In this document: piece by piece, positions 1,569 through 59,642 of the stretch
How positions within the stretch are numbered: the stretch's first letter is position 1
Layout of the letters: each line of letters begins with the position of its first letter
Origin: Antedon mediterranea
Lineage: Eukaryota; Echinodermata; Crinoidea; Comatulida; Antedonidae
Length of the DNA: 64,000 nt
Direction of reading: 5' to 3'
Assembly: GCF_964355755.1 (NCBI RefSeq)
Contig: NC_092678.1
Location: 3,606,922-3,670,921 of the forward strand
The notes under the pieces: model-generated
Told to the model about the DNA's origin: nothing
Databases searched by the model: none
Seen by the model: only the letters and a program-made list of their open reading frames with translations
Program-made: the position numbers and the translations under genes

Positions 1569-1589
1569 ATTTCATAGCAATTTCACATT

Positions 1590-20443: not shown

Positions 20444-23400
20444 ATGAAATTACAACTAAGATTTGAGAAAAATATTGAACGGGTTGAGCTGAATGGGAGT
20501 GAAAATGAAACATTAAAATCATTAATTGATGCGGCAGAAAACTGTTTTAGGTATGTGAACAATTCTATATAATGATAAAACCAATCTAAATTCCAGGATC
20601 GCTAGGCCTATGTGTGGCGGTTGTACTACTTCCCGTACGCCGCGATAGGGTCGCGTCTGTGCTTGTAAATGTCATAAGCAGGCAGGTGAGGTTCAGCCTA
20701 GCTAGGCCTAGGTTTTTTGGCTAATAGTCTATGATTGATGAGCCTAGCTATGCTTATTATAGTAGTAAGTAGCTAGTAGTAGTAGTATCCTACAAATCAT
20801 ATTTTATATTAAGTATTTATTTGCGACGTATAGGCCTAGCCTAGGCCTAGTTTTTATGGGGATATGACCGGTTGGGCCGCCGACAAGTTGAGCCGCCGGT
20901 GATTTCTATGAAACGCCCAGTGCATGCGTCTTTTACGACATTTCGCGTAGTGATTAGGATGGTGTCCTAGTACATAAGTTCATGGTCTTGGTTTATTGTG
21001 TCATGAAAATAAATAATATATAATTACATATTATAATTAACAACACAGCAAAGGAAAGTAGTAATATTTAATAATGTAATTGTTTTTAATCTTTCGAGGA
21101 AAAAATTCAGTGCACTCATAATTTTTTCTCGCCGCGTGTAGGCCTACCACGTAAAGTCACGTTGTCCTCTCTCAGGACTAATTAATAGAGTATTAACATT
21201 CTTCGAATGAGGTTAAATAAATATTATTTTTTATTTACTAATCTTTTAATATCATATTTTATTGAATTTTACAATGTTAATACACAAAATATTTTACTAA
21301 AAAACGTGATTTTATGTAATTATTTTACCGAAAAATGGAGTAAGCCTACCTAGGCCTAGTTGTTTACGTCATTTTTGGCACTTTCGGTGATGTTTTATAT
21401 TTTGGAATCTACAAGCCAGATTTTCATAATTATTTCTTTAATTATACTATTTAATAATATATATACTAAAAACCATGATATATAAACTTTTGAATGTACA
21501 TCGATCCCTAATATAAATTGAACGAGCACCGGCGAAAGTTAGCATTTGGCGTTCCATAAAAAATAACGTTTTTCTGGTGGCGGCTCAACTTGTCGGCGGC
21601 TCAACTTGGCCTAATCCGTTTTTATGGAATGTAACATTAGGTCATTTATTGTGTATGGAGCGCCAAATATGCATTTGGTCATTGTCACTATCAGTGTTGT
21701 AACTGGCAATCTTGACCTTTTTGATATGTACTTCTGAAACAGAATTCTTAGATTTTTTGTTATAATACTATCCCAGGTAGGGCCTACCTTGAGTAGCATA
21801 ACAAAGTTTCAGCGATTCATTTTGCGAATAGCATAGCGGTGTCATATGTCTAAAATTTGACTCATCTGGTGTACTGTACAAACATAATTTTTCCCAAAAG
21901 CCAGTATATTATATATTTTATATAATTTCATATATATTTTTTTTTAGTAAATTACTACTATGATTTGGTAGTCATCTTGATTTATAGATTATTTAGGAAT
22001 TTGTAAAACTTTAATGTTAAATGTTAGAAACTTTTCCATCACTTCTGACGCAATCTGTTAATTGCATTAACTTTCAATGAAATAACAGTAACTTTACTGT
22101 AAGTGTAAAGCTTTTTAATCGTAAGCTGCTGCTTACATTTTAGGCAAAAGTTGTTAAAATCTATCCAAAAAAAAACTTTCCGTTAACATGTGTAACCTCT
22201 GAAACAGGTTTAATACGGTTTATTGTATTTTATTACACAATAAATATTTGTTTAACCTCCTCTTTATTCCACTTAGCTTCACAAAAAATAGTAGAAATCG
22301 GTGCTTTCAGAGCTTCGTGATCTTTATATATTTCTTCACCATCCTCTTATTACTCCGAACTCTTCTATAACTGGAGAGATCCTCCACTATTGAGATCATC
22401 AGACGGCATCCAACAAACATGCAGCGTTTCAACCCTGAACCATAACGCTTCCTTGTTGGTGGATCATCTGTGTCGCCCCAACAATTCTGTGAACCTGGTC
22501 ATTCTCCTTGCAGCTATTAAGTAAGTCCTGAGGCGGATTGCAATATAAAGACTTTGTCTTAGGCTTAGATCTAAGCCCCTAGCGAAAGTCTTAGTTAAGC
22601 CTCTCAGCAAAGTCGATTGCAATATAGCGGTCTTAACTGAGACTTTATTAGTAAAGAATTTCAAACAATCAAACCAGCCTATAGTTACCGACAAATGAGG
22701 GCGCTATACCAACAAGTGCAAATAGAGTAAGTTAACAATAAGGAGTAGCGACAAGCTCCTCAGTAGGACATATTGAGGCCATTTTAATGCATGAATGGAC
22801 ACACTGCCTATTCAATAGCGTTAAGATTACGTAAATACTAGGAGATTTTAGCAAATAATTTAAAATATTGGCAACAAAATTGTATGTAATTTGATAGTAA
22901 ATATTGGTTAATTAATACATGCTTAAAGTTTAAAAACAAATACTTAAAAAAAATAAATTTTAAATATGCTACTATGTAGTCTTTTCTTGGTCAAAATAGT
23001 GTAGCGCTAGGCCGCGTATGGAGAATATGTGTACAGCTTGTTGGTGCGGTTGTGGACCGCTAATAGTAATTGATCGTCAGGTAGGTGTGGGCCTATACAG
23101 ATTTTATCTATTGAAACAATTGGTAGACAAAAATAATAATACACATGTCTTATAGTTCAATACCCCTTTTCTACACTAGTATCATAAAATCAATTCACAG
23201 CAATATTTAAAGAAGTTAATTTCGCCATGATATTACAAGCTAGCCTAGGAGCGCTCCCGTCGCGCGGTTAGCGTAAGCCTGCCTAGAGGAGGCTTAGAAT
23301 CTAAGACCACGGCGCTGAAATTCTAAGCCTAAGACTTCTTATTGCAATGGTCTTAAATCTAAAACCATCGTTGCTAAGGGTTTCATCTTGGGCTTAAGTC

Positions 23401-26400
23401 TAAGACCGCGGTTAAGACCTTTATTGCAATCGGCCCCTGGTACTTTGAATACTGTACTTTCTTTCAATACAATGGAACTGTTAACTCGATTATTATCAGT
23501 ATCTTTGATTCCTCCAACCATAACACTGCATCTGGTCTCAGTGTAGTTCGAACAACTTGAGGAAATTGTAATTTCTTACCCACATCAGCTTCATTTAACT
23601 GCCATGATTGTGCTGTCTGTGGTGGATTTGTTTTAGTAACCGTTGTGGTTGGTGCAATTGCCTCAGATCTGATACTATTAAAATTGGACTGTGGCTTTCA
23701 TATCTTGGTGAAACCCAATCAATAATGAGAGTAAAATAGCCCAATGTTTTAAGATAGACCCGTTGGGTCCAGGCCTACAAGATTTACACGAAGATCCACA
23801 CGGCCAATTCCCTTTTTATTGAAACTTTTATGACTTGAAATATACGAATGTATTCATGACAGCACGTTCTGCTTTGCACCTGTTTTTAATCTTTCAACAT
23901 CTTTGATTGATATGGTTCTATATATTTGTCCATATTTGTCGAACACTTTGTAGCAAAGTATCATTTTTCATAGAGTAGGTCCCCAGCAATCGCTTAAACA
24001 ATTCTTTCTCAAAGGCCATAGCAGTGATTTGATGTATTCTGGTGCATCAGTTGTATAATTTGCCACGGATGAAACCATTAAGTGACCCCTTCTGCCAGTA
24101 TGACTAATTGAACCTTCATGGAGAGCGGACACGGATAAAATAGTGCTGTGGAAAGTGTCCTAAATCCGACCAAATTGGACTTTAATTACTAGTTAACGAC
24201 CATATTGAGAATTATAGACGCACAGTCTCAACTAATTTATATATTTTGTGATTTGTTTTGCTCTATTTTACTGGTTTTCCGAATTTTAAAACCATGACTA
24301 CCAACGAGGCCAGTAGTAGACGTACCCGCAGTAGCCAACCGGACCAGGTAGACAATGAGGTAAACATGCATACTTTGCATGCATTGTTAACCAAATTAGA
24401 CGCTGATATGAACTCCCGGTTTGACGCGCTAGCGTCTCAAATGAGCAAGGTTAATGCAGACATTAAAGGCATTCGAACTGATATGGCTGACTTGGAGACA
24501 GGGGTGAAGCATATGGACAAAGATATTCTTGAAATTAAGGAGGAAACCATACCAAAGTTGGAGTCAGAACTTAAGGATAAAATTCAAGAACTGAATGCTA
24601 GCAGGTTAGAGTCGGAGTTTTACAGTAAAAAAGCAAATTTATTGTTCTTTAACATCCCTCAATCCAGTGCAAGTGAGGACACAGAGAATGTCCTACGGAA
24701 GGTGCTGACCAAAGTAAACACCGCTGCTGACGATATCGAGTTTGCAAATGTCCACATCTGCCTACCAAGTCTGTAACGACTACTAAGCCCATCATAGCAA
24801 AATTTCTTAAAATGAAAGATCGTGAGGCCGTTTTGAATTACATTGCTGGGAAACCGGTTGTTGTTGTTCCACATCTGCCTACAGCCATGCAACAGGAACG
24901 GAAAAGGCTCATTCCAATTCGAAACAAGCTGTTAGACAGTGGGAAGAACGCCAAAATACGAGTTCAAGGCACCAAGGTAGCTATCTTCGTTGACAAGGTA
25001 ATATGGAAAGAGAATTTGTAAATTGTTTACTATTCCATTTCAACATTAACTCATTTTTTAACTTCGAAATGCCGGACGGTACTGTAGTCGTTTTATTTGC
25101 CATTTTCAACATTTAATTTATTTCATGAACTTCCCAACTGTTTAATGAACTTCCGTACTGTTTAGAATGAGAATCGTTTATTTTCCTTTATTTATTGAAC
25201 TATGCAAATGCCGGCAGTACTTTATGGAGTGAGAAACTGTAAATTGTTTGTATTTCCATTCTCACATTAATTAATTATTTCATAAATTTTTAAAATGCAA
25301 GTACTGTAGTATGAGATTTCATTGATCTTTCTATCTGTCCACACGTTAAATTCAAACATCATACAGTATGGACCTTTCCCCAGTAACACATTGTTCTTGT
25401 CCTCTTCGTTTTTCACTTTCTGCCTAGATAAGTATATGTGTTTAAGTGTGTATAATATGTTATATGTTGGCATGGTACTCTTTTTTTTTACATATATATT
25501 TCATTATGCGTTATATTTAATGACCTATTACATTCCATTTTATATTATTCAAGTAAATGACTAACTATTGTAATTGCTGTTCAAAAGACATTAGAAGTCA
25601 TCAGTCAACGATTGTTTGTAATATTTGTAACTCTTTTTACCATACACATTGTATTTATACCGATGTTAATGCTAATGAAGACTGGTTTTGTTTTCAATGT
25701 ACTGGAAATGTCTTTCCTTTCAACCATTACATTGACGACGATGAATTTAAATTTGCTTTATTCAGTCTTAATAATACCCTTGAATATAATAGAATGTTAA
25801 ATCTGAAATTTAATCCATTTATCTTTAACGATGTGATAAATAACTCTAATAATTTAATTGATTATGACAATACCACATTCATGTTCTTATACCTTTGATC
25901 ATAACATCTCAGCTACATGTGAAAAGGACTTTTCCATCTTACATATAAATCCACGAAGTTTCAATAAAAACGTTTATTGATTAGCACGTTCCTCACTAGT
26001 TTAAGGCATACCTTTTCGATTCTAGCTTTATCAGAAACCTGGTTTAAAGAGGATGGTTCCAATTTAATCCACATAGATAACTATAACTTGGTTAATACAC
26101 CACGCTGTGGAAGAAGAAGTGGTGGTGTTGCTATCTATGTTCATAATACAATCTCATTTCGAATTCGGAATGATTTAAAATTAATTGACAAACCGTCTGA
26201 GCACTTTGATCATTCTGAATCTATCTTTATTGAAATAACAGTTCCCGGTAGTAAAAACATTGTCGTTGGCAATATCTATCGTGCTCATCGTACCAATATT
26301 GAAACATTTTTTTATGATCTTACAAATTGTCTCACAAAAATTAATACTGAAGAAAAACAATGTTATATATCCGGTGATTTTAATCTTGACCTTCTACATT

Positions 26401-41400: not shown

Positions 41401-44400
41401 GACAAGTTTCTCTTTCGGAAGTAATTCCCAGGGTGCCATTGTGTCTTTTTATTCGTTTCTATAAACGACAACGTATGTGTATTCGAGAACCATCTGTGGG
41501 CACATCCTAGAAGAATCTATTAATCTATAATTTACACAATGTAAATTGTTTTGCAAGTTGACATTTCTAGTTGTTAAACGGAGTTACTTTTTTTCTTTGA
41601 GGGAATGCTCAATTCAATATAAATTCATAAAATGTTTAATGTGTTCATATACTATTGTGTATTACTTGCCACGATACAAAAATAATTAGGTTGCTAATCA
41701 TTTAATGTGATTACCAAACTAGGACAATACAGTAGGTAGTGTTAAAGAAAAATTAGTAACTTTCGAAACAAGTTAAATTGTTAACCAAACCTCCGAAACA
41801 CCAACATATAAAATGTTCCACTCAATAAATAATTTGCAAATTCTTTTGAAACTTTTTTCTTTTTGTAACCCATTAACCCTTTCACTGCGGAGCATATTTA
41901 AGAAAATAATGTATATTTAAGAAAAACATATGGTATTTTAATAAATTGCAAAAAAATACTAATTAAGATAATTGTGTAATTATTTTTGTGGTGTGTGATG
42001 GGCAAAGGGTTAGTCTACAGTTAGGTATACAAAAAAAAGTAATTTGCATATTGATGACATCATGTGACGTCATTACAGGTATTTTGGATTTCGTGTTTTT
42101 TATCGAATCAATGATAAAAACTATATTTTCTATAAGAAATTCTTATGGAATACGTTTTTCCAACTGGATATTGATGAAGATACGTATAACAAATAAAAAT
42201 ATAAACAAAAATTGAATTATTTTTATTGTTTTTTAAAAATTATGCACAAATCAAAGTTTTGGGGCAAAATCGTGAAAATAATGACATTTTCCAAAAATTC
42301 ACTATAGTACAAAACTAACTATTGTTTCAGAATTTTTTTTTTGCCGTGTTGTGATAAACACAATGTTGCCCTATTGGGGCTGGTAAATTTTGGTTACTTT
42401 CAAAATGGCCGCCATTACGCTACTCAAAACAACTTTCCAAGATAGAATACTATTATATACACTATACTATATATAACTATAACTATAGAGGGCGCATGAT
42501 TTTCAAGACAATAATACAGCTATAGAGGACCGTTTTTTTTGCTGGAAAAATTTTTTAATGACTTGCAAAAATATTCAAGTTCATCGAACAAATATAGAGG
42601 GTGCTATATATTATAGGCAAATACGATTAAATCATTGTTTTGCCCATACCCGGTATTACCGGGTATACGCACTTCAACGACGTTTGTTTATACCGGGTAT
42701 ACGCAGTGAAAGGGTTAAGGTGAAATCATACAATGATTTTGGACGTGACAGTACAAAGGTTACACCAAGTTTGATTGTGAAAATGACCTTTTAGGAAAGA
42801 AAACTGTATTTACAGTATTACTTGTCTACTCTATGCTCCATTTCAGAAATCTTTGATCTGCCCTGGCGACTCAAATGATTAGTTACTAAATTGAGCCGGG
42901 AAAAATAATTAAATAATTGAATGTTTTCTTTTTAAAGGTTGCAAACCGGGACATTCTTTGTAAGTCTTAACAGAAAAGATGAACTCAGAGGATCTGACAA
43001 TGCCCCACTATCATCATTTGACATTGTGTCAGGAGATAGAATATTTGTGATTGAAAGAGACAAAAGGAAAAGAGAGAAAGAAAAACCTGGAAAATCCAAA
43101 GCAATGAGTCAAAGAGAACCAACACCAACAAAAACATGTAAACCTTCAAATTCAGAATCAGAACATGCCTCCACTTCGGGCACAGCAACAGCAGGACTGT
43201 CCAATGATAAACAACAGCCTGAACGACCAGTAAAAGCTGAAGAACAATTTGAATGCATTTCCTTGGAGCCAATGGTGATAAGAGACTCTACAGATGATAA
43301 AATACCACTAAGGTTGAGAACTCTTCTGGAGAAAGAGATGCCGCAAAATGAACAAGAAGTTCTAATATTGATTTGCCACATTCTACTCCTTGAAACTGGT
43401 TTTAATATCAAAGTAAGTTGTTATCAGATTACCTCAGACATCACTTCTTTTCTTGGGAAAAAATGTCTCATCAATCCATCTGAAGCTCCACTTTCACAAT
43501 TTTTTTTCTGTCAGAACATTTCATTAGAACACTCGTTTTCATTAGAACAACATCCAAGTATTCATTCATTCTTTCAATCTTTTATTTCTGAATCTCTGGT
43601 CCATAGAAAGTAAAATTACATATAAATTTAGTTAGTGAGTGAGTGAATGGCAGAGCGGTTAAGACAGTCGGAACAGTAATACGTAGCCATAACATCGGCA
43701 AGGGTTCGAGGCTCACTCGATCCTTGGTTCTGGTGGTACTGTAGAACGAGTTTTCTCAGATAAGGACCATAAACTGTAGGTCCAGTGTACACATCTGTCT
43801 CATGTGCACTTTCGAGACGACTTGGGGGTTACGCCGGTGTACACACAGTCACTGTCGCATACTTATCATATATATACAGTACACTGGGCCCTCTGGGACG
43901 AACAGTCTTAGACTGAAGAGGCTACCCAGTTTAAAGAATAAATAATTAATTAATTAATTAAAAATAAACAAGCCTGTACTAATTATTACTACTCATCTCA
44001 CGATGGCATTCCACCTTGAGATCGAGCATCTTTGACTTATAAAGACTATAATTTTTTAGACTAAAACATTTACACATGAATTGAATCAACACATCAGGCC
44101 ATAATTTTCTTAAATTCATAAAAAGAAGGGATTCTACATTCCATAATCATGAGGCTGGCACTACAATATCGAGGCCTTTGCAACAACATTCTAAAACCCA
44201 TTATTGTAGCATACCTGGCAAGATCGCAAGGTACTCTGATTATAGTTGAAATGAATTGAAATATTTTATTTATACTGACTGACTGATCTCCCAGAGGGCC
44301 CAGTTATGATCAGTGGCTGTGATGTACTAATACACCAGGGGTACGAGGTTCGTTAAAGTGCACATGAGCTAGATGTGTGTATAGTCCTTATCCGAGAAGA

Positions 44401-47400
44401 CTCGTTCTACCACCAGAACCATGGAGTGAGTCAGCCTCGAACCCCTGCCAATGTTTGTTATGGCTACTTAATTACGGTTCCACTGTCTTAACCGCTCGGC
44501 CACACACTCATTGTAGCACAATTATACATGTGTTCCTGCAACTTTATTGTACTGTACGTTTAGTATGATCTTTTTCAAATTTTTCTTTCTCGTTCTAAGG
44601 TTAAAGGTGATACAGGGAATGACGACCCTACATTACTGGATACAAGGAACAAAGGATCTTACAGTCTTACGTATTCTCATGATTATTGTGAGCAATCCAC
44701 AGTGACCATAGTGTTTGTTCCAATGTCCAGTATGCTGGTTGCACATGGTAAGTAAACTTATATAACTTACTTAAAAGCCTATTCTTTAATTTAAGACTCG
44801 TCATTGTTACAGAGAATGTCTGCTAGCAAAAATGAAATGATAGAATGTAGTATGGTATCATCATTTGAATCATCCAGGCTCCATTACAAAATGATGCAGA
44901 TCCTGAGATGATCTGATAACGGTGTTTTTTTTGTGTGTGTTAGCCTTTTTATTTAAACTTGTTTTTTCTAATGCGATGCAATTGGACTATGGACGTACGT
45001 ATCCGAATTAAAGTAAAATAAATGAATGAATAATTAATAAGCATTACAGTAGCAATGACAAGGTTTTCATACTTACTCATAAGTATACCACTTTTTTTAT
45101 TCTTAAATTTATTTAGCCAAATTGACGGGCACGAGTGGTGCTGTTTCACCTCTGCAACTGCAGTTTACTGATTACATTGGAAACGTTGTACAAGGTAAAT
45201 TTGGTGTTTTTTTATTAATAATTTACACAGAGAAGCGTTTACCAAAAAAGAACATTCATATAAAATAACAATTACATTAACTGAAACATATGATGACTTG
45301 TACCTGCTTTTGATTTACACTCAGTAATATATGTAATTTTATTTTTCGGATAAAAAATTAAAAAACAAAACATAAGACATAAGATATACTTTATTATCTC
45401 CAAACAGAAGAAATTACAGGAGCTTCACAAACAACAAGATTTATATAAAAAGAACAGAATAAAAACCAGCAAACCAGTCAAAAGTACAACCGGTTTTGTA
45501 CAAGCTGCCCACCTCGAGAACTCGCAAAATAGTATAGTAATTGTTTTATTATCTCCTTTTTAAATTATAGGGTATCCCTCCACATGGAAACATTTGTCAT
45601 CCTTATCCCAGATATTTAAGGATAATTTTGCTCTGCCGATTTTAGCAGCTATGAGACAAAGTAAGTTATCTTTATTGGGTTTTTACACACTAGGTATAAA
45701 AACAAAATTGGTAATTGCTGGTTATAAAACAGAATAACAATAACAACATATTAAAAGTTCAAGAAATATAGAAAACTCACAATAAGTAAAAGATAGAATG
45801 TAATTTGAAATCAACATTTCTATACACTAAAAGCCCTGTTTTCGATTCTAAAAACACAAGATGTTTTTAAATTATTGACATACTATTGTTTTTTTTTTAG
45901 ACCTCAACTTACCAGTGTTATACGGATTTCTTGCCCTTATGCCCGAGATACAGGTAATCAAAATTGGTAATTTCTTGGAAATAATAAAGTGAAAATGTTA
46001 CAATTCAATGTTTAAATTTGTATCTGGACAACTACCCCCTGGACAACTACTCCCCGAACAACTACAACCCAGACAATCACCCCTAGGACAACTACTCTCT
46101 AGGACAACTACCCGCTTAAGACAACTACCACCCAGACAACTACATCCTAGGAGAACTGCCCAATAGGACAACTACCCCCTAGGACAACCACACCTCTAAA
46201 ATAACTACACCTTAGGCTTTTCATGTATTTTTTTTTTTTAATAATAAATTATATTACACTTTGATTAATACGATCTTGTCAAAATTACTGATCTTCAAAA
46301 CATAGGAAGAGAGATTGATCTTATGTAAGCTTTTGAATCTGTTCTTTGACAAACGAGAATCAATAACGCTCCAAATTACCTTAAAACATATTTATTCTTG
46401 CGTGACATGAAGGTGCTATATAGAAATCTAGGAATATACAGTTTACCTATCTGCACCAGTCAGTTGAAAATCATATAAAAAATCAGTAATATGGAATATT
46501 TGGCTGTTACTACTGTACTTCATAGAGGAACTTTAATTGAATAATTATACCCATGATGTGTTTATGTCTATCTTGAACATTTCTACTTATTTTAGTTTCT
46601 TCGTATTCTACAGCTAAGAACCTCCAAATTTGGTTTGGATTTTTAAAAAAGCCTACAATATTAATTAATTGATTACATTAGACAATTTGAAAATCAATCT
46701 CTCTCTCTCTTTCAACAGGTTCATAATTTCCTTAGTCTTCCTAATTGTTAAAACATAGCTAACTGTGCCAATTGAGGAAATCGTTTTCAGGTTGTGTCAT
46801 ACACATTGTTTGTCCTAGAAGTTTTCTTTTAAATAAATATCGCTACAGTTATTACAAAATAGACTAGATATGTAAGTTACATATATTGATATAAGACCGG
46901 TAGAATATGTTAATAAATATCATGTCAAATATTGTAAAATGCATAGTGTGGTACACCGTTCATGTAGTCCACTCCTCACACACAATTTGATTTACAATTG
47001 GCACCAACAAAAGCAGCTTGTTAATTTAGTTACCAATTGTAGTTGTCCAGGGTATAACTTTCCTAAGCTGTAGTTGTACTAAAGGGGTAGTTGTACTAAA
47101 GGTGTAATTGTCCTAGTGGGTAGTTGTACTAGTGGGTAGTTGTCCTAGCGGGTAGTTGTCCTAGCGGGTAGTTGTACCAGCGGGTAGTTGTAGTAGCGGG
47201 TAGTTGTCCTAGCGGGTAGTTGTCCTAGCGGGTAGTTGTACTAGCGGGTAGTTGTACTAGCGGGTAGTTGTCCTAGCGGGTAGTTGTCCTAGCGGGTAGT
47301 TGTCCTAGCGGGTAGTTGTACTAGCGGGTAGTTGTACTAGCGGGTAGTTGTACTAGCGGGTAGTTGTACTAGCGGGTAGTTGTACTAGCGGGTAGTTGTC

Positions 47401-50400
47401 CTAGCGGGTAGTTGTCCTAGCGGGTAGTTGTCCTAGCGGGTAGTTGTACTAGCGGGTAATTGTCCTAGAGGGTAGTTGTACTAGTGGGTAGTTGTCCTAG
47501 AGGGTAGTTGTCCTAGAGGGTAGTTGTACTAGCGGGTAGTTGTACTAGCGGGTAATTGTCCTAGAGGGTAGTTGTACTAGTGGGTAGTTGTACTAGTGGG
47601 TAGTTGTACTAGAGGGTAGTTGTACTAGAGGGTAGTTGTCCTAGAGGGTAGTTGTCCTAGCGGGTAGTTGTCTTAGCGGGTAGTTGTACTAGCGGGTAGT
47701 TGTACTAGCGGGCAGTTGTCCTAGCGGGCAGTTGTCCTAGCGGGCAGTTGTCCTAGCGGGCAGTTGTCCTAGCGGGCAGTTGTCCTAGCGGGCAGTTGTC
47801 CTAGCGGGCAGTTGTCCTAGCGGGCAGTTGTCCTAGCGGGCAGTTGTCCTAGCGGGCAGTTGTCCTAGCGGGCAGTTGTCCTAGCGGGCAGTTGTCCTAG
47901 CGGGCAGTTGTCCTAGCGGGTAGTTGTACTAGAGGGTAGTTGTACTAGCGGGTAGTTGTCCTAGAGGGTAGTTGTACTAGCGGGTAGTTGTACTAGCGGG
48001 TAGTTGTACTAGCGGGTAGTTGTCCTAGAGGGTAGTTGTACTAGCGGGTAGTTGTACTAGCGGGTAGTTGTACTAGAGGGTAGTTGTCCTAAGGGGGTAG
48101 TTGTACTAGCGGGTAGTTGTACTAGAGGGTAATTGTACTAGAGGGTAGTTGTACTAGTGGGTAGTTGTCCTAGAGGGTAGTTGTACTAGCGGGTAGTTGT
48201 ACTAGAGGGTAGTTGTCCTAAGGGGGTAGTTGTACTAGCGGGTAGTTGTACTAGAGGGTAGTTGTACTAGCGGGTAGTTGTCCTAGAGGGTAGTTGTACT
48301 AGCGGGTAGTTGTACTAGAGGGTAGTTGTCCTAAGGGGGTAGTTGTACTAGCGGGTAGTTGTCCTAAGGGGGTAGTTGTCCTAGAGGGTAGTTGTACTAG
48401 TGGGTAGTTGTACTAGAGGGTAGTTGTACTAGTGGGTAGTTGTACTAGCGGGTAGTTGTACTAGCGGGTAGTTGTACTAGCGGGTGGTTGTCCTAGAGTG
48501 TAGTTGTACTAGCGGGTAGTTGTACTAGCGGGTAGTTGTCCTAGCGGGTAGTTGTCCTAGCGGGTAGTTGTAATGAGCGGTAGTTGTACTAAGCGGTAGT
48601 TGTACTAAGGAGTAGTTGTCTTAAGGGGTAGTTGTCCTACAGTAAGCAGTAGTTGTCCTAAGGAGGTAGTTGTCCTAAGAGGGTAGTTGTCCTAAGAGGT
48701 AGTTGTCCTAAGAGGTAGTTGTCCTAAGAGGGTAGTTGTCCTAAGAGGTAGTTGTCCTAAGAGGTAGTTGTCCTAAGGGGGTAGTAGTTGTCCTAAGGGG
48801 GTAGTAGTTGTCCTAGGGAATAGTTGTCCTAGAAGGGTCCAGGAAGTAATTGTCTGGGTAGTTCCAGGGGGTAGTTGTCCTAGACTCGTTTGAATTGAAA
48901 GCCTAAATAAAATAGATGGGAGCTTTGATGTATAGTCTGTCGTTATTATTTTGAACCTAAAAACTAACAAAAATGAGGAATGAATGTTTGCGTACAATAA
49001 ATTAACAAGACCTTTCTTGTGCCTTGATCGTTGCAAATTTTGTAAGTTTTAATGCTGATTTTATACTGTTTATTTTGGTTTTTTTTATTTTGTTAATTGT
49101 TTTTTACTATGTTTATCTACAGCTCAAGATTCTCAGTTTTCTCAATGTACGTGATCTGATGTCATTATCTTCTGTCTGCAAACACCTGCATAGTCTTTCT
49201 AATGACAGTGCCCTCTGGAGAAGATTAGCCATAAAAGACTTCAGTTTGAGAAAAAACAAGGACACAAATTGGAAAAGGGTAAATAGAATTATAAATTATA
49301 ATTGACCACTAAAACATTTACTTTAAAAAAAATTTCCATCAATATAATTATGTTTACCTTCCATATTTAGGTCTATATTCAAAATTATCATTACAAACTT
49401 GAAATGGAGAGGAGAAGACGAATGAAATTACATCAAGATTACCCAGTGCAAGTGGTACCTCCTAGTTTTGGTTTGGTACCGCAATATCCACAACCTTTTC
49501 CTAATGCTTTTCCAGGAATCAGGTAAACAAACATTTCCACTATAGTTTTTTTAGATATTATCAATTATAAACTGGGTCCATGTGTGCGTGTGCAAACTAC
49601 TGCAACAATACCAGCTACAGTCAAACTACAAGGCATAGGCTTATGGCCAATTAGCCGTTCACATCCAAATAGTCTAGAACAGTAACACTACTTAATTGTT
49701 ATAATAACGTACATAGTACTCCCACGTATCTCTAGCAGGAATAAAAAAACTATCTACTATTAGATAATAAGCGAGATTTCTCGCAAACAATTCTTAACAA
49801 CCAAAACTAAACATTCACGCCCCCGAAATGTTCGAAATCGGAAACAAATTAACATGATTCACAGTACAAGGATTTCGAAAAATAATAACCACAACAAAAG
49901 TGAATCTTGATTTAAATACAGTAGTAAATGTTCACAAGTCAAATCGATAGTTACGTTGTAATCAAAGCATTCTTATTTAGAAGAAAACCCATGGTTAAGT
50001 TCTCCCACAGTTGCAATCATACATAGCTTTATGTACAGGCCTTTTCTTTATCCACTACACCTACACACCGACATGGTCATACATTAGACTTGCTGATCAC
50101 TCATTCATCTGATCCTCCTGTTTTCTCAAACCTTAATGTCATTGATGGTATATCAGATCACTATGCAATCACATGTAACCTCAAGAAGCCGCCCGTAATC
50201 ACCAAATCCATCAAAACTCGTCATTGGAGTGCTATAAATTTTAAAACATGTAAGGATATCACACAGTCTGATCTCGGAATGTCGCTCTCAAATCTTGTTT
50301 TATTAAGTAAAATATGACTATATGCCACCACTTTGAGTGAACTTCTTGACAAACACACACCCCCAAAAAAGAGAACAGTAGAGGTCCGACCAAACACTAG

Positions 50401-53400: not shown

Positions 53401-56400
53401 GCTCTGGGGCATGCGCAATAGTGTGTCGGATTCCCTAACGCTGGGCAGTTGAGTTCCGGTGCCGGAATCCTAACCACGGCGTTGTTTTAATGCTGTGTCA
53501 TAATCGAGTTCATTGGTTAGAACTTTGACAAAGAAAATATGGCCCTTCAATCCATTTCTGAAGGTCACTTGGGTATATTGGCTTGGTTAACTGATCCGCT
53601 TGATTGACGTTAGAAAGGATATAACATAAGGTGAGTGATCTAACCCAAACAGGACAACTCCAAGTACCAGTTTAGCATGTCGAGCCATTATAACAACCGC
53701 AGTCTATAGTCTTGGAATTGATCTTTTCTTTATCGGTGCATTTGCTAAACAAATGTCAATGTAACTCCTCGTAGGGTAACCCAAACACAGCCAGATAACA
53801 TAACCAAATGCAGCCTCACTAGCGTCACTGAAACAGTGTAACTGAGGGTACTCAATAGAATCCTCAGGTGTTAGCTGGCGTGAGAAAGAGAAACTTGATG
53901 ATATGGAGACGAGGGGTGTGATTAGGCGGACAGACAAACCAACAGAGTGGGTCAACAGCCTAGTGTTGGTTGAGGAACGAGATGGATCCTTGAGGTTGTG
54001 TTTGGATTCGCGTGATCATATGATACCAACCGCTAAGAACGTAGTGAGTCAGCTGTCAGGTAATACACTGTATTTGACCAGAAAGATGCGCAGATATATG
54101 TACATTCAATACTCCCTTCGGACGTACAGTTTTCTAAGAACGGCAATTGGTATCTACAGTGCTAGTGGGATGTTGCAGAAACAAAACCAGCAAATATTTT
54201 TTGTCATATACCTACTATAATGTACACATAATATTTGATGATATGATTATTGCTACAGGTAGTGAAGCAGAGCACAATGTAAACAATACAGATGGATACG
54301 GCTAAAGTGAACAATGCCAAATTCAGCGGAAGCAAGCTGAAGTATAAGTATAGGTCTGACTTACATTGTATAATGGGAATGTTAAACTATCTCTCACAAT
54401 TCATACCTTATTTGTCCAGAGTAAGTGCGCCTCTCCAGGAATTACTCAAGAAAGACGTCGCATGGTTCCGGGGTCCAGAACAAGCAGAATCCTTGAGACA
54501 GTTATAGGTATTGATTAGTAGCAAAACAGAAACCAACCATTATCCAATGTGATGCATCATCCCCAGGGTTTAGAAGTTTGCCTGTAGGTCGTTAACATTA
54601 GCCAAAGTTTATCACTCACAAATAGAAAAGGAGATGTTGGCGATTTGCTTTTCTGTACACAAACACCACCTATATATATAGTCGACCTGTTGAAGTTCAA
54701 ACTGATCACAAATCACTTGAAACAATCACACATAGACCACTACTTAAAGCTAGTCGTAGAATACAACAAATGTTGCTCAAATTAATAAAGTATGAACTTG
54801 ATGTTAAGTATGTTCCTGGAACGTATACGTACATAGCTGATGCTTTCAGTAGAGCATATCCTGATACGGTAGATTGTGATGCCTAACCCCTTGAACTTTT
54901 GAAGTACAATGCATAGTCTAGACGAAATATTGCCCATGAGTAAAGCTAAACAGGCAGATGTGGTACTCTAATCATGCAAAGCATAGATGGGGTGCACCGG
55001 AGCAAGTTAGGCAGTATTGGCATCTTTGTGATGAGATACATGAAATTGATGGTCTTGTGTTCTTAGGTTTTGGTACGCAGAGTAAGTGGACTACTGGAGA
55101 AACACCATCTTTCAATTTGATGTCATAAGAATCTTGATATTTACCTAAACCTGTGTATGGGGTAGTTGTACTATGGGGTAGTTTTCCAGGGGGTAGTTGT
55201 CCTAGACCCCATCTTTATAACTATAGGTTAGTTTTAGAATGATATACTTTAATGTTCTCATGTCCTAGTAACGTTCTAAATGTCTCGAGAGGTATGCAGT
55301 TAGCACATGCTCCTGTGTCAAGCTTCATCTTTAACACATCATAGAACCAAACGTTCTATTACTGTTATCTTTTAGAATGTCAATATAAAATTGTATGTAC
55401 AACTCTTCCATGTCCACGACCGCATCCTCGTCTGTGATGATGATGATTCATCGTAGCATGTTTTACCATACGCTGGACAATGACGAAGTAGATGTGAAGA
55501 ACCCCACCTGCTTCATTTAACTTTGGCTGCACCCGCAAATCTCTGATGATTCTGTTGATTTGGTTTTGCTCAATGCATAAACCTTCGGCTTACAGTCACT
55601 TGCAACACTGGCCATTTCAAGCTTGCGTCATTCAATGTATCACAGTATCAAGTGTAGCGTTTCCATCATCGCACAAAACTTTCATCTTCATATCTGGATT
55701 TGTTGCAGAAAGCTTGTCACGAACTGTGCTGTCTTGATCCACAAACTCATCCAGACCCTCCGGGTCCAATATGACCTTAGCCTACAAGAGCATTAAGCGT
55801 AAAGTTGTTGTAAATATCTAAGCCACACCCTTCCAATGTAGTAATTACAATTGTTACCTTTATTTCACTACTTTTACGTCACTGCCGGTCGCTTTCAGGA
55901 AAAATGTGAATCACTGTTTCCACCTTTTCCAAGCATCAGATACACTAGTACCATCAAAATCAAAGGGCTAAGGCAGCTTAAATATCAACGGGTAACAAAA
56001 TAACGGTATGTGACAGTGACCCCCGGATGTTGTGACATCATCATATGGCCACCGGAATTGAAAATGAAAAATTACACATTTTAAAATGCGCACATCGCGT
56101 AAATAGTTTGACAAGAGTTTTAACTAAATCATATGGCCACACAATTTTTAAGTAGGTGTTTGTTGTTTGTTACTAGTTAATTAAATGTAATACAGCGCAT
56201 CCCGCTTATTTGAATCAAGTATCTTTCATAATTTCTGTTTAAACTGATGATCTGTGGACCTCATATTTCTCTTCCTTGTTAATAGGGACTTTATAAAACA
56301 CGGCGGTTAGGGAAGGACGACAAATATCCTGTGTTCGCTATAGTGTAAAATCATATACAGTCAACATAGCCGTTTAATTAGTTAAGCACCCTTGCACAAA

Positions 56401-56868
56401 GACGACGACAGGCGGTATATCTCTCCGATCCCTTCCCTGTCTTGTCTTGGTTCTGGGCCTAACCTTCCTAGCATGCAAACGCCGCTTTTAACACAGCCAT
56501 TTTAACCCAATTAAAATGTTATTTCATTAAAATTGAACTTCAAATATTATTTAGAGTTTTTAAAATTCCATGTTTAAGTGTAATTTGAAAATGTCGAGTA
56601 TGTGTATTATCATGTTTTGAATGTGCCACTACGCTTTTTTTCTTTTATTTTCAGAGGAGGAGACTATGATCTAGATCCATTTTCACAATCGCCAACCAGT
56701 CTGTTCAACCCACGAGGTATCGGAAGTTTACCAAATTCAGGACCTCTACCTGGTGCAAGATTTGACCCATTAAATCCATTTAGAGATCCATCTAACAGAC
56801 CCGGAAGAGGTGGTGGACTCCGCGATAACTACCATAATCGGTTGAACTTTGGGGGTGGGTTTTTCTGA
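20444..56868 (+). CDS. FBXO7: F-box only protein 7 (FBXO7)
   Basis: Nine exons join in frame to about 490 residues (human about 522): 20444-20550, 42938-43412, 44600-44747, 45117-45194, 45571-45660, 45901-45953, 49123-49278, 49371-49522, 56655-56868. Exons 1-2 form the ubiquitin-like domain (about residues 1-80). A charged linker follows; exons 2-6 encode the FP dimerisation domain shared with proteasome inhibitor PI31, including the [14 protein letters not shown] segment. Exon 7 is the F-box ([20 protein letters not shown] ... LWRRL). Exons 8-9 give a Pro/Arg/Gly-rich tail with GGDYD and FDPLNPF, matching the family's C-terminus. FBXO7 is an SCF E3 ubiquitin-ligase adaptor that also supports mitophagy and proteasome regulation in vertebrates. 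Intron 1 is about 22.4 kb and hides the first 35 residues far upstream. AATAAA is at 56913. Confidence 0.93.
20860..21618. mobile_element. MITE with 9-bp target duplication (Mutator-like size)
   Basis: TTTTTATGG occurs at 20851-20859 and again at 21619-21627, flanking a 759-bp segment whose ends are inverted copies containing GCCGCCGACAAGTTGAGCCG. The direct repeat is 9 bp, the usual length for Mutator-like elements. No transposase is encoded; it lies in FBXO7 intron 1. Confidence 0.82.
21640..22440. other. FBXO7 intron 1, unassigned stretch
   Basis: AT-rich intronic sequence with no coding potential or repeat that I could define. Confidence 0.4.
22445..23680 (-). mobile_element. Degenerate retroelement fragment split by a MITE
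   Basis: Read on the minus strand, the pieces on either side of the MITE at 22531-23436 give [20 protein letters not shown], then an ELTVP-like segment and [13 protein letters not shown]. This resembles the LTVPWE-type C-terminal domain common in reverse-transcriptase-bearing elements of marine invertebrates. Stops and frameshifts make it dead. Confidence 0.45.
22531..23436. mobile_element. PIF/Harbinger-like MITE with CTG target duplication
   Basis: The 906-bp segment is flanked by CTG at 22528-22530 and 23437-23439. The left end reads AGGCGGATTGCAATA and the right end, on the other strand, GGGCCGATTGCAATA; the subterminal sequence repeats GTCTTAG/CTTAGAC-type words in both orientations. 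A 3-bp duplication with G-rich inverted ends fits the PIF/Harbinger group. No transposase is encoded. Confidence 0.75.
24258..29571 (+). mobile_element. Nearly full-length LINE with ORF1, PHD finger, APE and RT
   Basis: ORF1 starts at about 24294: a Ser-rich head, a coiled coil (about residues 40-120) and an RRM-like part ([10 protein letters not shown] ... [14 protein letters not shown]), with a one-base frameshift near 24760. A second ORF begins at about 25557 with a C4HC3 PHD-like finger (CNCCSKDI ... WFCFQC), then an AP endonuclease ([28 protein letters not shown]; 25900-26620) and reverse transcriptase ([40 protein letters not shown], catalytic YADD near 28612). Several frameshifts and stops make it inactive. 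A 621-bp MITE interrupts RT. The 3' end has an ACTGAA tail at 29548-29571. It lies in FBXO7 intron 1, sense orientation; the exact 5' end is not defined. Confidence 0.85.
27485..28105. mobile_element. MITE inserted in the LINE reverse transcriptase
   Basis: GTCTTTAAA occurs at 27476-27484 and again at 28106-28114. Removing the 621 bp and one copy restores the reading frame from IIPVFK directly to [14 protein letters not shown]. The ends are imperfect inverted repeats (GCCCCATTCCCTACGTTTTTT against CCCTTCCCTGC...ACGTTTTTT). The duplication is 8-9 bp, although a TTAA core also sits inside it. No ORF of its own is seen. Confidence 0.85.
29572..30440 (-). pseudogene. Unrecognised degenerate ORF block
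   Basis: Three minus-strand open stretches (30435-30220, 30112-29822, 29831-29586) have ordinary amino-acid composition and probably belong to one decayed ORF. A segment near 29640 reads [19 protein letters not shown] recognise no domain. It immediately follows the LINE 3' end and probably represents an older mobile element; a cellular pseudogene is possible. Confidence 0.35.
30460..31175 (+). repeat. Degenerate tandem repeat, unit about 137-157 bp
   Basis: The word ACAGGATAAAGTTGCT recurs at about 30474, 30630, 30787 and 30932, with a decayed fifth start near 31069. Each unit also carries GGAATTGGCC-, GTGTGGCTTTTC- and GGGCTACTGTCT-like words. A single unit in inverted orientation lies at about 23755-23825. 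This looks like an old minisatellite or the terminal repeats of a large element. Confidence 0.75.
31290..32770 (-). mobile_element. Internally deleted LINE: endonuclease joined to RT C-terminus
   Basis: On the minus strand, 32520-32130 encodes AP endonuclease pieces ([33 protein letters not shown]), and 32103-31600 encodes the RT thumb/C-terminal region ([19 protein letters not shown]). The palm and catalytic motifs are absent between them. The 3' region runs to about 31290. It lies in FBXO7 intron 1, antisense. Confidence 0.75.
32780..33160. other. FBXO7 intron 1, AT-rich stretch
   Basis: No coding sequence or definable repeat beyond simple AAATA-type runs near 32815-32850. Confidence 0.4.
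33166..33960 (-). mobile_element. LINE fragments: ORF1-like and linker region
   Basis: The minus strand at 33540-33166 encodes a coiled coil plus an RRM-like segment ([23 protein letters not shown]), typical of LINE ORF1 proteins. At 33720-33541 a different frame encodes [20 protein letters not shown], typical of the segment between endonuclease and RT of other LINEs. The two look like unrelated remnants brought together. Confidence 0.6.
33961..34655. other. FBXO7 intron 1, unassigned stretch
   Basis: AT-rich. A CAATCAATCAAT run at about 34480-34492 may be a retroelement 3' tail. Nothing else is recognisable. Confidence 0.35.
34759..34830 (-). tRNA. tRNA-like gene, anticodon ATC (probably tRNA-derived)
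   Basis: The minus strand folds as a full cloverleaf: acceptor GCCCCAG/TTGGGGC, D stem GTCT/GGAC with TAATGGTTA loop, anticodon stem TCTGC/GCAGG with loop ATATCAA, and T stem CCGAG/CTCGG with loop TTCGAGT. The loop gives anticodon ATC, formally Asp (GAT codon), but eukaryotic tRNA-Asp normally uses GTC. The variant anticodon and the repeat setting suggest a tRNA-derived repeat rather than a working gene. A pyrimidine-rich TTTTTCTC downstream could act as a Pol III terminator. Confidence 0.55.
35128..35199 (-). tRNA. Second tRNA-like copy, damaged anticodon stem
   Basis: It is the same cloverleaf in the second tandem unit, with two changes: the anticodon stem 3' side is CCAGG, which breaks pair 31-39, and the T loop is TTCAAGT. 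It is probably a decaying duplicate. Confidence 0.5.
35500..35990 (+). mobile_element. LINE C-terminal fragment
   Basis: In shifting frames the plus strand reads [15 protein letters not shown] and then [18 protein letters not shown] followed by [10 protein letters not shown], the usual end of many non-LTR RT proteins. It is a short decayed 3' fragment in sense orientation to FBXO7. Confidence 0.55.
36620..36848 (-). mobile_element. tRNA-derived SINE, 5'-truncated
   Basis: It shares the GATCTCCCAGAG, AAAGTGCACA, GAGAAGACTCGTTCTACCAC and box-B words with the copies at 43640 and 44270. The box-A end is missing. It sits between the YLVDL and DHNVV segments of a LINE. Confidence 0.75.
37385..38215. 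mobile_element. Fold-back element, 831 bp, with 8-bp target duplication
   Basis: ATATTCAT occurs at 37377-37384 and 38216-38223. Between them the whole segment is one long imperfect palindrome: the left arm starts ATGGAACGCCGTTTACGCAA, and the right arm is its reverse complement. The arms contain runs of AATGAAATGTTTTG-type units and the centre keeps pairing (TACCCTCATCTCC with GGAGATGAGGGTA). Removing it restores the LINE protein [11 protein letters not shown]. An 8-bp duplication would suit hAT-like mobilisation; no transposase is present. Confidence 0.9.
38670..40730. other. FBXO7 intron 1, unassigned stretch
   Basis: AT-rich sequence without recognisable genes. A phrase like GCAATACTGGATATGG occurs near 39123 and 39602, hinting at an old dispersed repeat. 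Confidence 0.35.
40736..41040. repeat. 54-bp tandem repeat
   Basis: About five and a half copies of a 54-bp unit containing TACTGTGAGTGTGGGTACTG and ACACATACAGTATACAGATA. The last unit is modified, with ACTCACAGTAAT replacing part of the unit, which creates a local inverted repeat. Confidence 0.88.
41877..42714. mobile_element. piggyBac-like MITE with TTAA target duplication
   Basis: TTAA at 41873-41876 and 42715-42718 flanks an 838-bp segment with ends CCCTTTCACTGCG and its reverse complement CGCAGTGAAAGGG. TTAA duplication with CCCT-type ends is the hallmark of the piggyBac group. The right subterminal part has two copies of ACCGGGTATACGC. No transposase is encoded. Confidence 0.85.
43640..43965 (+). 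mobile_element. tRNA-derived SINE, full-length copy
   Basis: The 5' part looks like a tRNA-Ser/Leu promoter: box A GGCAGAGCGGTTAAGACAGT and box B GGTTCGAGGCTCACTC. A conserved body (GAACGAGTTTTCTCAG, GGTCCAGTGTACAC, GTGCACTTT) and an AATT tail at 43948-43963 follow. It lies in FBXO7 intron 2. Confidence 0.82.
44255..44516 (-). mobile_element. tRNA-derived SINE, minus copy
   Basis: On the minus strand, box A TGGCCGAGCGGTTAAGACAG (44501-44482) and box B GGTTCGAGGC lead into the same body as the 43640 copy, ending in AT-rich tail sequence near 44260. It lies in FBXO7 intron 2, tail to tail with the 43640 copy. Confidence 0.82.
45375..45535 (-). mobile_element. Retroelement 3' end in FBXO7 intron 4
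   Basis: ATAAGACATAAGATATACTT reads on the minus strand as a short repetitive tail after AATAAAG-like sequence, the typical 3' end of a 5'-truncated non-LTR element. No coding part is visible. Confidence 0.45.
46022..46210 (-). repeat. Short inverted counterpart of the 16-bp minisatellite
   Basis: Units such as GGACAACTACCCCCTA are reverse complements of the large array at 47034-48890. They are more diverged and number about eleven. It lies in FBXO7 intron 6. Confidence 0.85.
47034..48890 (+). repeat. 16-bp minisatellite array, about 1.85 kb
   Basis: More than one hundred units of GGGTAGTTGTCCTAGC and variants (TACTAGCGGG, CCTAGAGGG). A homogeneous block of GGGCAGTTGTCCTAGC units occupies about 47709-47905, and the edges are more diverged, as expected from unequal exchange. 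It lies in FBXO7 intron 6. Short pieces of the same unit recur at 55155-55205 in intron 8. Confidence 0.95.
49523..50075. other. Start of FBXO7 intron 8
   Basis: No coding sequence or repeat is recognised in this part of the intron. Confidence 0.35.
50076..51830 (+). mobile_element. Decayed LINE in FBXO7 intron 8
   Basis: The plus strand carries an endonuclease end ([15 protein letters not shown], 50110-50170), then RT remnants: [18 protein letters not shown] near 51090 and the catalytic box FYADDLQYV near 51255, with a C-terminal part to about 51830. Numerous stops and frameshifts make it inactive. Confidence 0.75.
51870..52620 (-). mobile_element. BEL/Pao-type integrase fragment
   Basis: The minus strand reads [15 protein letters not shown] (52410-52300), then an MTT-type strand and, after frameshifts, NAWRRF and [10 protein letters not shown], which match the catalytic core order of BEL/Pao LTR-retrotransposon integrases (first Asp in DFFGP, second in SDHG). 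The plus-strand ORF at 52139-52570 is its shadow. Confidence 0.6.
52894..53481. mobile_element. MITE, 588 bp
   Basis: TTGTTTTAATGC lies at 52882-52893 and again at 53482-53493. The ends are inverted copies of CGTGGTTAGGATTCCGGCAC continuing into CAACTGCCCA. The centre is AT-rich with a few TAGGC words. The superfamily is uncertain; a duplication of about 9-12 bp would be near Mutator-like length. Confidence 0.75.
53704..53890 (-). mobile_element. BEL/Pao RNase H fragment
   Basis: The minus strand encodes [18 protein letters not shown] and IKKRSIPRL, matching the start of RNase H in BEL/Pao elements. It abuts a plus-strand Ty3/gypsy fragment, so the junction is a rearrangement. Confidence 0.65.
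53896..55120 (+). mobile_element. Ty3/gypsy RT, RNase H and integrase N-terminus, decayed
   Basis: RT start: [20 protein letters not shown] and LRLCLDSRD (53912-54010). RT thumb: [13 protein letters not shown] (54382). RNase [31 protein letters not shown] and [11 protein letters not shown] (54610-54830). Integrase start: [19 protein letters not shown] (55010). The RT catalytic part is deleted and several stops are present. It lies in FBXO7 intron 8. Confidence 0.78.
55210..55990 (-). mobile_element. Ty3/gypsy gag-protease fragment
   Basis: The minus strand encodes a retropepsin-like [11 protein letters not shown] site near 55300 and, upstream, the second half of a CCHC zinc knuckle ([15 protein letters not shown], near 55480). 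The gag part further upstream (55990-55520) is frameshifted. Orientation is opposite to the adjacent RT fragment. Confidence 0.6.
55991..56654. other. End of FBXO7 intron 8
   Basis: No gene or repeat is recognised. The acceptor TTTATTTTCAG ends at 56654. Confidence 0.4.
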
Positions 56869-58118
56869 TCGCTACTCGTGATTGTTCGACTATTCTAACA
56901 TAGTAAAAGTAAAATAAACAAATGTATTGTAAATATTGTGTTCAAGTATGTTTGACCTTTGAACTTTGACCTTTAACTGACCTTTGAACTGTGACCTTTA
57001 ACTGACCTTTGACCTCTTGGTTTAGATGCTGTATTGTTGTACAGGTTACTTGTAATTAAAACGCGAACAACCAGATAATTGTCGTCATGTGTTTCAGTCC
57101 CAATCATATTTGGTAGAAAATAACACCAATAAGATAATTGATCATACAATACATACTTTATTATACTATGATTATTCTACGTCTACTACATTCTTGACAA
57201 ATTTGGGTATTGTTCTTTTTTTGCATAGTAAAAAAAAATTACACATTCAAAAATAACTTACAAACTATGAACTGAAACTATATTAAATAACTATTATTTT
57301 GAGTCTCGTCGGGGCATTTTATCACACAATTTAGGGACTCTATCCGCATTGAGAGATACTCAACAATCATTCTTTAAATCTATTATATAATTAACTACAC
57401 ACACATAAGGTGAATATGAATCTTAATGGAAACATAATGCAGCTAGTAATCAGCGCAGTTGTGTCTAGATCTAACCGGGTTCCCATTCCTGGGTGAAGAG
57501 AGGCGACAGTTGGATTCGAACCAGTAGTAGTAGTAGTCAACACACTGCGCCACACGCCCTAGTGTACCCAACATAACAATAAAATAATGCTTTAACCAAA
57601 AGAATCATTAAACCGATAATCAAAATAATTTGTTCTCCCTTTTTGTGATTTTCAATTTAAACTGTTTTAAAACTCTACATATGCCACAATCTTTTACACA
57701 CAGTGTATTTAAAAAACACAACTAAAATCCAACTACAAAACCTTCTATTGCTTATTATTATTTTTGCTGGTCATTATAACGCTATATAATAAGTGATTTA
57801 AATACAAATATTACATAAAAGAGGCCTCATTACTAGTGATAACTGCAGATATTCATTTATAGTACGATACTGCGCCAAACGGCAACGTATTAAGTATTCT
57901 GAATGTTTGGGAGCTGATGACAAGCTAAAGGGAATAATCTGCGTGAAGAGAAAGAATTGTTTCTCTTGCCAAGGAACATGCTAACCACAAAGTATTTATC
58001 ATTGTTGCTCTATAAGAGGCACATTCTTAAGCATGGCGCATATGATTGAATTAAAGGTCAAAATTTTTTTTTTTAAACTTAAGGCTCTCTCTCAGAACTA
58101 CATTCAATAAGCAGATAA
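56869..58118. other. Convergent 3' region between FBXO7 and synapsin
   Basis: It holds the FBXO7 3' UTR (AATAAA at 56913) and a likely synapsin 3' UTR (minus-strand AATAAA at 57162-57157). A run of TGACCTTTGAAC-like words occupies about 56953-57026, and a tRNA-like SINE piece lies at 57485-57565. Confidence 0.5.
57485..57565 (-). mobile_element. tRNA-like SINE fragment
   Basis: The minus strand has a box-A-like GTGTGGCGCAGTGTGTTGAC and a box-B GGTTCGAATCC, separated by an ACT repeat in place of a normal anticodon arm. It is therefore a decayed tRNA-derived sequence rather than a gene. Confidence 0.5.
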
Positions 58119-59642
58119 TTATATATCACCAAAAATGGTAGCAAATGTTTTTTTCAAGTTTGTAAGTGTGTCCTCTTCATCGTGAAGGTCCAGAGTAGGC
58201 AGGGGTGGTGGGTTCGTCTGCGTTTTTGTTGGTGTACCGGAAAGTGCTGGTTTCTGATTGGATGTTGGTGTTCCTACTTTTGATGTGTTGGGGCTGTTGC
58301 TTTGTGAAGTACGTTGCAGATTTGGTAGGCTTGATGCGCTGGTTAGCATTGTGGCAGATCCAGTTCTGCTGATAACAAACAAAATTAAGATAAGATAAGA
58401 TAAATCTTTATTGTCATGAACGCAACAAGGCGAACATGAAATTGGTTTTCCTTGATGCTTAAAAACACATACAATATATAAAACATTAAAAATATCAATA
58501 CAATACATTAAAACTATATACAGTAGTAAACAAACTATCTTTGGAATGTTGTGTTGGAAAATGATTTCCTATATCGAGTGGTATTGCACATTAAAGGATG
58601 AATTCTACCTGATTTATTAACAACATATTTATTATTCAATGGGTGTCAGTTATCTTCCATTATTTTCTTAACTTGGCTAACATCGAGCCTGTAAACTGCG
58701 TCAATAACATTGACATTCCTTCTATGCTATTTTACTAGCAGTTTTCATAGTACGGTCAAGTTTCTTTTTATCATTAGCACTCAGACTATTGTATTAGTAA
58801 CGTCAACTCTTCCAATACTGGACTGTCTGAAAACCTGTCTTTTCTTGAGGCTCAAAAGGTCCCAAATAAAAACAAATTCTAAATACCAGACTTTCTAGAA
58901 AACCAGATAGCCCAAAGGTGTCTGGTATTGGGAGAGTTGACTGAATAAAAATTAACATTTTAAAATCATTAAATCTAAATTCTTTTAAATCCATTTAAAT
59001 TCAAATATGTCCTTATACTGTATACATCATATGGAAATTAACCAGTTACTTAAAATGTCAATGGTCACATGACTTACTGCATAACACAAGCATTCATCTT
59101 TTGCAATACCAACTCTGCGATATGTTTTCGGTCTTCTTCTTGATTCTCACCGATCAGCTGCATCGACGAATCATTGACCTTAAAAAAAGCCGCAATAAAG
59201 AAAGGAAATACAATGGTTATAATTAAATCAGTACATAATTATTCAAATTATCCAACAAAAAATGATCATCCGGCATTATACTGTATGTGTTACTAAGCAG
59301 GATTATTCATTCAAAATAAACAGGAATGAGGGACTGACCTGGGAATTCAAAATAAGGGCTGACCTGAGAATTTAACTTAATTTGCAATTAAAAAAAAGTT
59401 TTGGGCGTCTGCTCAACAAAATTATTTTTCAGTTACGCTTGAATTACAGAGAAATTGCTAATAACTATTTTTTTGTTACTAATTAATATCATTAGGATTC
59501 TAGGAATGTGTTTTACAAAAAAAATGTGAGTGATACTACCTCTATGATATAATTCTTGCTATCTTTGCCATGTATAGCTTCCACAGATACGATATCTAGG
59601 CCACCGAAAAGCTCACTGCATTCATCTACCCACAGCTTGAAT
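58119..59642 (-). CDS. SYN: Synapsin, last three exons (partial)
   Basis: Exons 59642-59540, 59178-59078 and 58368-58119 (or 58365) join in frame. The first two encode the end of the conserved ATP-grasp-like C domain: [14 protein letters not shown]-type (here SELFGG), [20 protein letters not shown] and [20 protein letters not shown]. The last exon gives a Ser/Thr/Pro-rich region and ends [17 protein letters not shown], the conserved C-terminal E-domain motif (vertebrate RSLRKSFASLFSD). Synapsins coat synaptic vesicles and regulate the reserve pool. The N-terminal exons lie beyond position 64000. The last exon has a tandem CAGCAG acceptor, so one residue may be optional. It is tail-to-tail with FBXO7. 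Confidence 0.92.
58380..58520 (-). mobile_element. LINE or SINE 3' end beside a synapsin splice site
   Basis: On the minus strand the element ends GACAATAAAGATTTATCTTA with a TTATC-repeat tail, reaching within about 20 bp of the acceptor of the last synapsin exon. The tail therefore forms the pyrimidine-rich part of that acceptor. Confidence 0.65.
58521..59077. other. Synapsin penultimate-to-last intron
   Basis: AT-rich. A short inverted pair, CAACTCTTCCAATACTGGAC near 58803 and its diverged complement near 58920 (CTGGTATTGGGAGAGTTGAC), forms a hairpin of about 140 bp, possibly a small MITE. Confidence 0.4.

Follow-up and report, generated by a model that had tools for sequence, protein, structure and literature searches.

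In the crinoid Antedon mediterranea the genes for FBXO7 and synapsin are immediate neighbors, as FBXO7 and SYN3 are in mammals, and converge on each other with stop codons 1,251 bp apart. This adjacency has probably been retained from the ancestral deuterostome gene order, which we consider the best explanation of the data described here. The window analysed comprises 64,000 nucleotides of contig C9 (NC_092678.1:3,606,922-3,670,921) in a genome of 354 Mb and 18 contigs, of which C9 makes up 7.3%. The initial annotation had placed FBXO7 at 20444-56868 of the plus strand of this window and the stop codon of synapsin at 58119 of the minus strand; these coordinates proved exact to the base, and the convergent orientation and the distance of 1.25 kb that it reported are confirmed as well.

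FBXO7 (20444-56868, plus strand) was rebuilt from the sequence as nine exons with AG/GT borders, which join in frame to give a protein of 490 amino acids. Exon 1 (20444..20550) begins with the ATG, encodes the start of a putative Ubl domain and joins exon 2 in frame via a GT donor. Exon 2 (42938..43412, AG/GT) contains the rest of the putative Ubl domain, the linker and the start of the FP domain, the FP part being alignable to human FBXO7 (PDB code 4L9C). The FP domain continues through exons 3 (44600..44747) and 4 (45117..45194) into exon 5 (45571..45660), where the domain draws to its end; all three have AG/GT borders and align to 4L9C. For exon 6 (45901..45953), which comprises the FP end and the start of the F-box, a single candidate both keeps the frame and matches the human FBXO7 residues in 4L9C. 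The F-box itself is located in exon 7 (49123..49278), whose reading frame is matched by Pfam F-box-like at 1.5e-11. The proline-rich C-terminal region can be read directly in exon 8 (49371..49522, AG/GT, in frame) and exon 9 (56655..56868), the latter carrying the C-terminus and the stop codon as well as a weak match to PI31_Prot_C (0.026).

In the joined protein the F-box is recognized by Pfam F-box-like at 2.5e-12, over the cut-off, and the FP domain by PI31_Prot_N at 1.6e-5 (25 bits, cut-off 21). Comparison with the PDB returns human FBXO7 (4L9C, 7.3e-16) as the sole match below 1e-4. The N-terminus resembles the human Ubl domain by eye, and Pfam gives a sub-threshold match to UN_NPL4 (0.055) for residues 12-72. 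As read from its sequence, the gene is a complete FBXO7 ortholog with the predicted domain order Ubl-FP-F-box-proline-rich. It is present as a single copy, a genome search with exons 7-9 returning this locus alone. PI31_Prot_N has one other match in the genome, on contig C1; this candidate was not accepted as FBXO7 and was taken as PSMF1/PI31 because of the name of the family and because it lies elsewhere in the genome. Two of the introns harbor transposon sequences. In the 22-kb intron 1, remains of a non-LTR retrotransposon are found at 25557-29003, with a PHD-like ORF, an endonuclease (1.7e-6) and a reverse transcriptase recognized by eye, while Ty3-like pol fragments were likewise recognized by eye in intron 8 at 53846-54886.

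Synapsin is encoded on the minus strand, and the window holds three of its exons, corresponding to the last 1.5 kb of the coding region. The last exon (58119..58368) was delimited by its borders and stop codon and presumably encodes domain E, an assignment based on the sequence and on the C-termini of other synapsins. The two exons preceding it in the direction of transcription, 59078..59178 and 59541..59642, have suitable borders and match the Synapsin_C profile at positions 171-202 (Pfam 4.1e-7) and 137-177 (Pfam 1.5e-15), respectively, as well as synapsins in the PDB; the exon start at 59642 is a canonical acceptor. The only PDB entries matched by two joined stretches of the predicted protein are synapsins II, III and I (1e-41 to 4e-38). 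Together with the domains and the PDB match to human FBXO7 described above, this bears out the identities that had originally been assigned to both genes.

Outside the window, profile searches locate upstream synapsin exons on the minus strand at C9:3673207, 3678359, 3678662, 3864716 and 3867990, and the most 5' exon recognized, found by eye, lies at C9:3869757-3869998 on the same strand. The gene thereby spans about 205 kb up to about C9:3,870,000, that is, it extends about 200 kb beyond the window. Genome-wide, the matches to the profiles of the N- and C-terminal ATP-grasp domains of synapsin form one colinear minus-strand gene, with PF02750 over the cut-off in six exons and PF02078 in one. 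A search of viral contigs for synapsin returned no relative. Just past the most 5' exon, the interval C9:3870000-3879999 contains 5,000 N, which could hide further 5' exons.

Like other metazoan synapsin genes, that of A. mediterranea contains TIMP genes. Plus-strand matches to the TIMP profile extend over C9:3685293-3832995. They are flanked by the minus-strand synapsin exons at 3678730 and 3864716 and thus lie in tandem and antisense within a single synapsin intron of about 186 kb. The count is taken from profile matches: six separate matches cover the same C-domain stretch (profile positions about 90-140), and therefore at least six nested TIMP genes are present. Two more TIMP matches occur on opposite strands at 23.72 and 23.74 Mb of C9. 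Nesting of TIMP in synapsin has been described across metazoans, with ten nested TIMPs in the synapsin gene of Strongylocentrotus purpuratus, and has been argued to be under strong stabilizing pressure (PMC2825198); many TIMPs are also known in echinoderms (PMC10381214). The crinoid locus agrees with this description in that its TIMPs are antisense in one synapsin intron and multiplied as in the sea urchin. Neither FBXO7 nor flanking synteny is mentioned in that study (PMC2825198), and a paper on TIMP evolution contains nothing on synapsin or synteny (PMC10755359).

The interval between the two stop codons (56869..58118), which includes both 3' UTRs, contains no ORF of at least 80 amino acids and hence no gene detectable by this measure. 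As in the whole window, no N bases are found there. A misjoin of the contig between FBXO7 and synapsin is hardly credible, given this unbroken sequence and two genes that are complete up to the interval. Moreover, the human-linked genes RTCB, RAF and TIMP are located on the same contig, and an accidental misjoin would be very unlikely to reproduce the mammalian arrangement.

Within the interval, one poly(A) signal is predicted on the plus strand at 56913 (AATAAA) and another, facing it, on the minus strand at 57162, about 250 bp away; judging from these hexamers, the mature transcripts of FBXO7 and synapsin may end about 0.2 kb from each other. Such proximity, as well as the stabilizing pressure already argued for the synapsin-TIMP nesting, would fit a regulatory cause of the adjacency, either synapsin or TIMP enhancers located in or beyond FBXO7 or an interaction of the convergent transcripts at their 3' ends. 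However, the transposon fragments in the long FBXO7 introns indicate that insertions are tolerated, and the gap between FBXO7 and SYN3 in mammals measures kilobases and not hundreds of bases, so that, judged by distance, an interaction of the 3' ends is not conserved. We therefore regard regulation as a rather unlikely cause of the adjacency.

The corresponding mammalian locus, RTCB-BPIFC-FBXO7-SYN3(TIMP3), is located at 22q12.3 in human, on SSC5 in pig and on CHI5 in goat; in human, FBXO7 is a plus-strand gene and SYN3 a minus-strand gene. For goat the published order is RTCB, BPIFC, FBXO7, SYN3, TIMP3 (PMC10762050), and in pig the same five genes are listed in reverse (PMC11366516). The crinoid chromosome differs from this locus in that RTCB is 17 Mb away from the pair (C9:20780215-20783452), several TIMPs are found instead of one, the gap is 1.25 kb and the BPI family, to which human BPIFC belongs, has no match anywhere in the genome, a missing match being weak evidence. 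Common to both are the immediate convergent neighborhood of FBXO7 and synapsin and the antisense TIMP within synapsin. The likeness to the mammalian FBXO7-SYN3 neighbors that the initial annotation had pointed out is thus upheld, the mammalian order being that of the goat and pig papers. The pair is not known to persist in Drosophila, where ntc and Syn are located at different places on 3R, which counts against the ancestral reading.

Besides RTCB, RAF is found on C9 (7846651, i.e. 7.85 Mb), at a distance of 4.2 Mb from the pair, and the presence of both genes on this contig is consistent with an ancestral linkage group common to the vertebrate synapsin loci. An RBD match on contig C4 was rejected as RAF, its sequence resembling the RGS12/14 type by eye; beside this exon a long open frame of tandem repeat (PDSYLSIFSFFAIFVQIDSSLYM) is observed, probably a minisatellite. 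LARGE is unlinked to the pair, with matches on C10 and C11, and heme oxygenase, sought as a further marker of 22q12.3, gave no match. That conservation stops at the pair, with RTCB and RAF megabases away and LARGE on other contigs, speaks against the ancestral reading. The chromosome is common to both lineages; its internal order is mostly shuffled, and FBXO7-synapsin(TIMP) is the fine order that remains among the genes tested.

Other genes surround the pair. To its left, a single-exon C2H2 zinc-finger ORF of 712 amino acids, stop to stop, occupies 1578-3716 of the window and carries a repeated stretch of the Q-P-A-V-T-L-G type, and still further left, outside the window, an amino-acid permease exon is located at about C9:3,595,090 (AA_permease_2, 1.1e-15). 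Beyond the 5' side of synapsin, at about C9:3,898,000 on the minus strand, lies an EF-hand gene resembling calaxin/EFCAB1. To our knowledge, neither the zinc-finger gene nor the permease nor the EF-hand/calaxin-like gene is a neighbor of FBXO7 or SYN3 in mammals, a further point against the ancestral reading. A tektin exon has its best PDB match in 8SNB, a sea urchin sperm doublet (175 bits, compared to 136 bits for the runner-up). Together with the nested TIMP array, this match points to an echinoderm or a closely related ambulacrarian; a search for COX1 returned no mitochondrial contig.

The shuffling of C9 also bears on the origin of the adjacency. FBXO7 and synapsin, ancestrally on the same chromosome, could have been joined separately in the echinoderm-like and in the vertebrate lineage by intrachromosomal rearrangement, and a chromosome in which RTCB and RAF have come to lie many Mb from the pair is one where shuffling can create adjacencies. 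In contrast, the chance of an exact convergent adjacency under random gene order is about 2e-5 genome-wide and 2-3e-4 given the same chromosome, both rough estimates that assume 20,000-30,000 genes and that lose about a factor of ten because the pair was singled out post hoc. Even with about ten noticeable pairs in the window the chance on C9 stays well under 1%, and we consider separate joining improbable. Shared ancestry is likelier than coincidence because RTCB and RAF sit on the same chromosome, and since chance amounts to about 3e-4 even given a common chromosome, the data are best explained by an ancestral adjacency that was retained. We thus infer common descent of the adjacency. Two lineages enter this comparison, the window on the one hand and goat and pig on the other, so that the age of the pair is bounded by the echinoderm-vertebrate split only if the adjacency is homologous.

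Under retention, a single synapsin gene would have existed before the vertebrate duplications, with a TIMP nested antisense in one intron and FBXO7 as convergent 3' neighbor. In the echinoderm lineage this reconstructed arrangement would have been kept while the nested TIMPs multiplied and the introns were inflated by transposons. Of the vertebrate copies, the later SYN3 would have kept FBXO7, and the later SYN1 and SYN2 would have lost it. We know of no second vertebrate copy of FBXO7; if there is none and the adjacency is ancestral, it is reasonable to regard SYN3 as the vertebrate locus that kept the ancestral neighbor. RAF is linked to SYN2 as well as to SYN1. For the latter, linkage of human A-RAF to SYN1 and TIMP1 is given by Derry 1992, as cited in PMC1867822. 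Since it is SYN1 and SYN2 that have kept the RAF linkage, none of the vertebrate loci alone has retained the full set.

The reason for the persistence of the pair, as we infer it, would most likely be passive: the gene ends are close, which leaves little room for a rearrangement breakpoint between them. Selection would also act against breaks within the long synapsin gene because of the nested TIMPs, and shared regulation would not be needed. A more far-reaching proposal, which we hold to be unlikely, is that FBXO7-synapsin(TIMP) forms a three-gene block of bilaterian or older age under shared regulation, with FBXO7 as a bystander of the synapsin/TIMP regulatory domain. If true, FBXO7, a Parkinson gene, would have one cis-regulatory neighborhood in common with a gene of synaptic vesicles in most animals.

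Our literature search found no paper on FBXO7-synapsin synteny; subscription journals and supplements were mostly outside its range, and genome-wide microsynteny tables may list the pair. Ancient metazoan microsyntenic pairs were reportedly described by Irimia et al. in 2012, and the present pair resembles them in that two unrelated genes are kept adjacent across phyla. FBXO7-synapsin would be a new instance of such ancient microsynteny and a modest extension of the known synapsin-TIMP block.

If the adjacency holds in other lineages, the synapsin-TIMP block would gain a conserved outside neighbor, and adjacency to FBXO7 would mark the synapsin locus as it was before duplication. The three vertebrate synapsin loci would then be polarized, SYN3 having kept FBXO7 and SYN1 and SYN2 having kept the RAF linkage, and the introns of FBXO7 would be places in which to seek enhancers of synapsin or TIMP.
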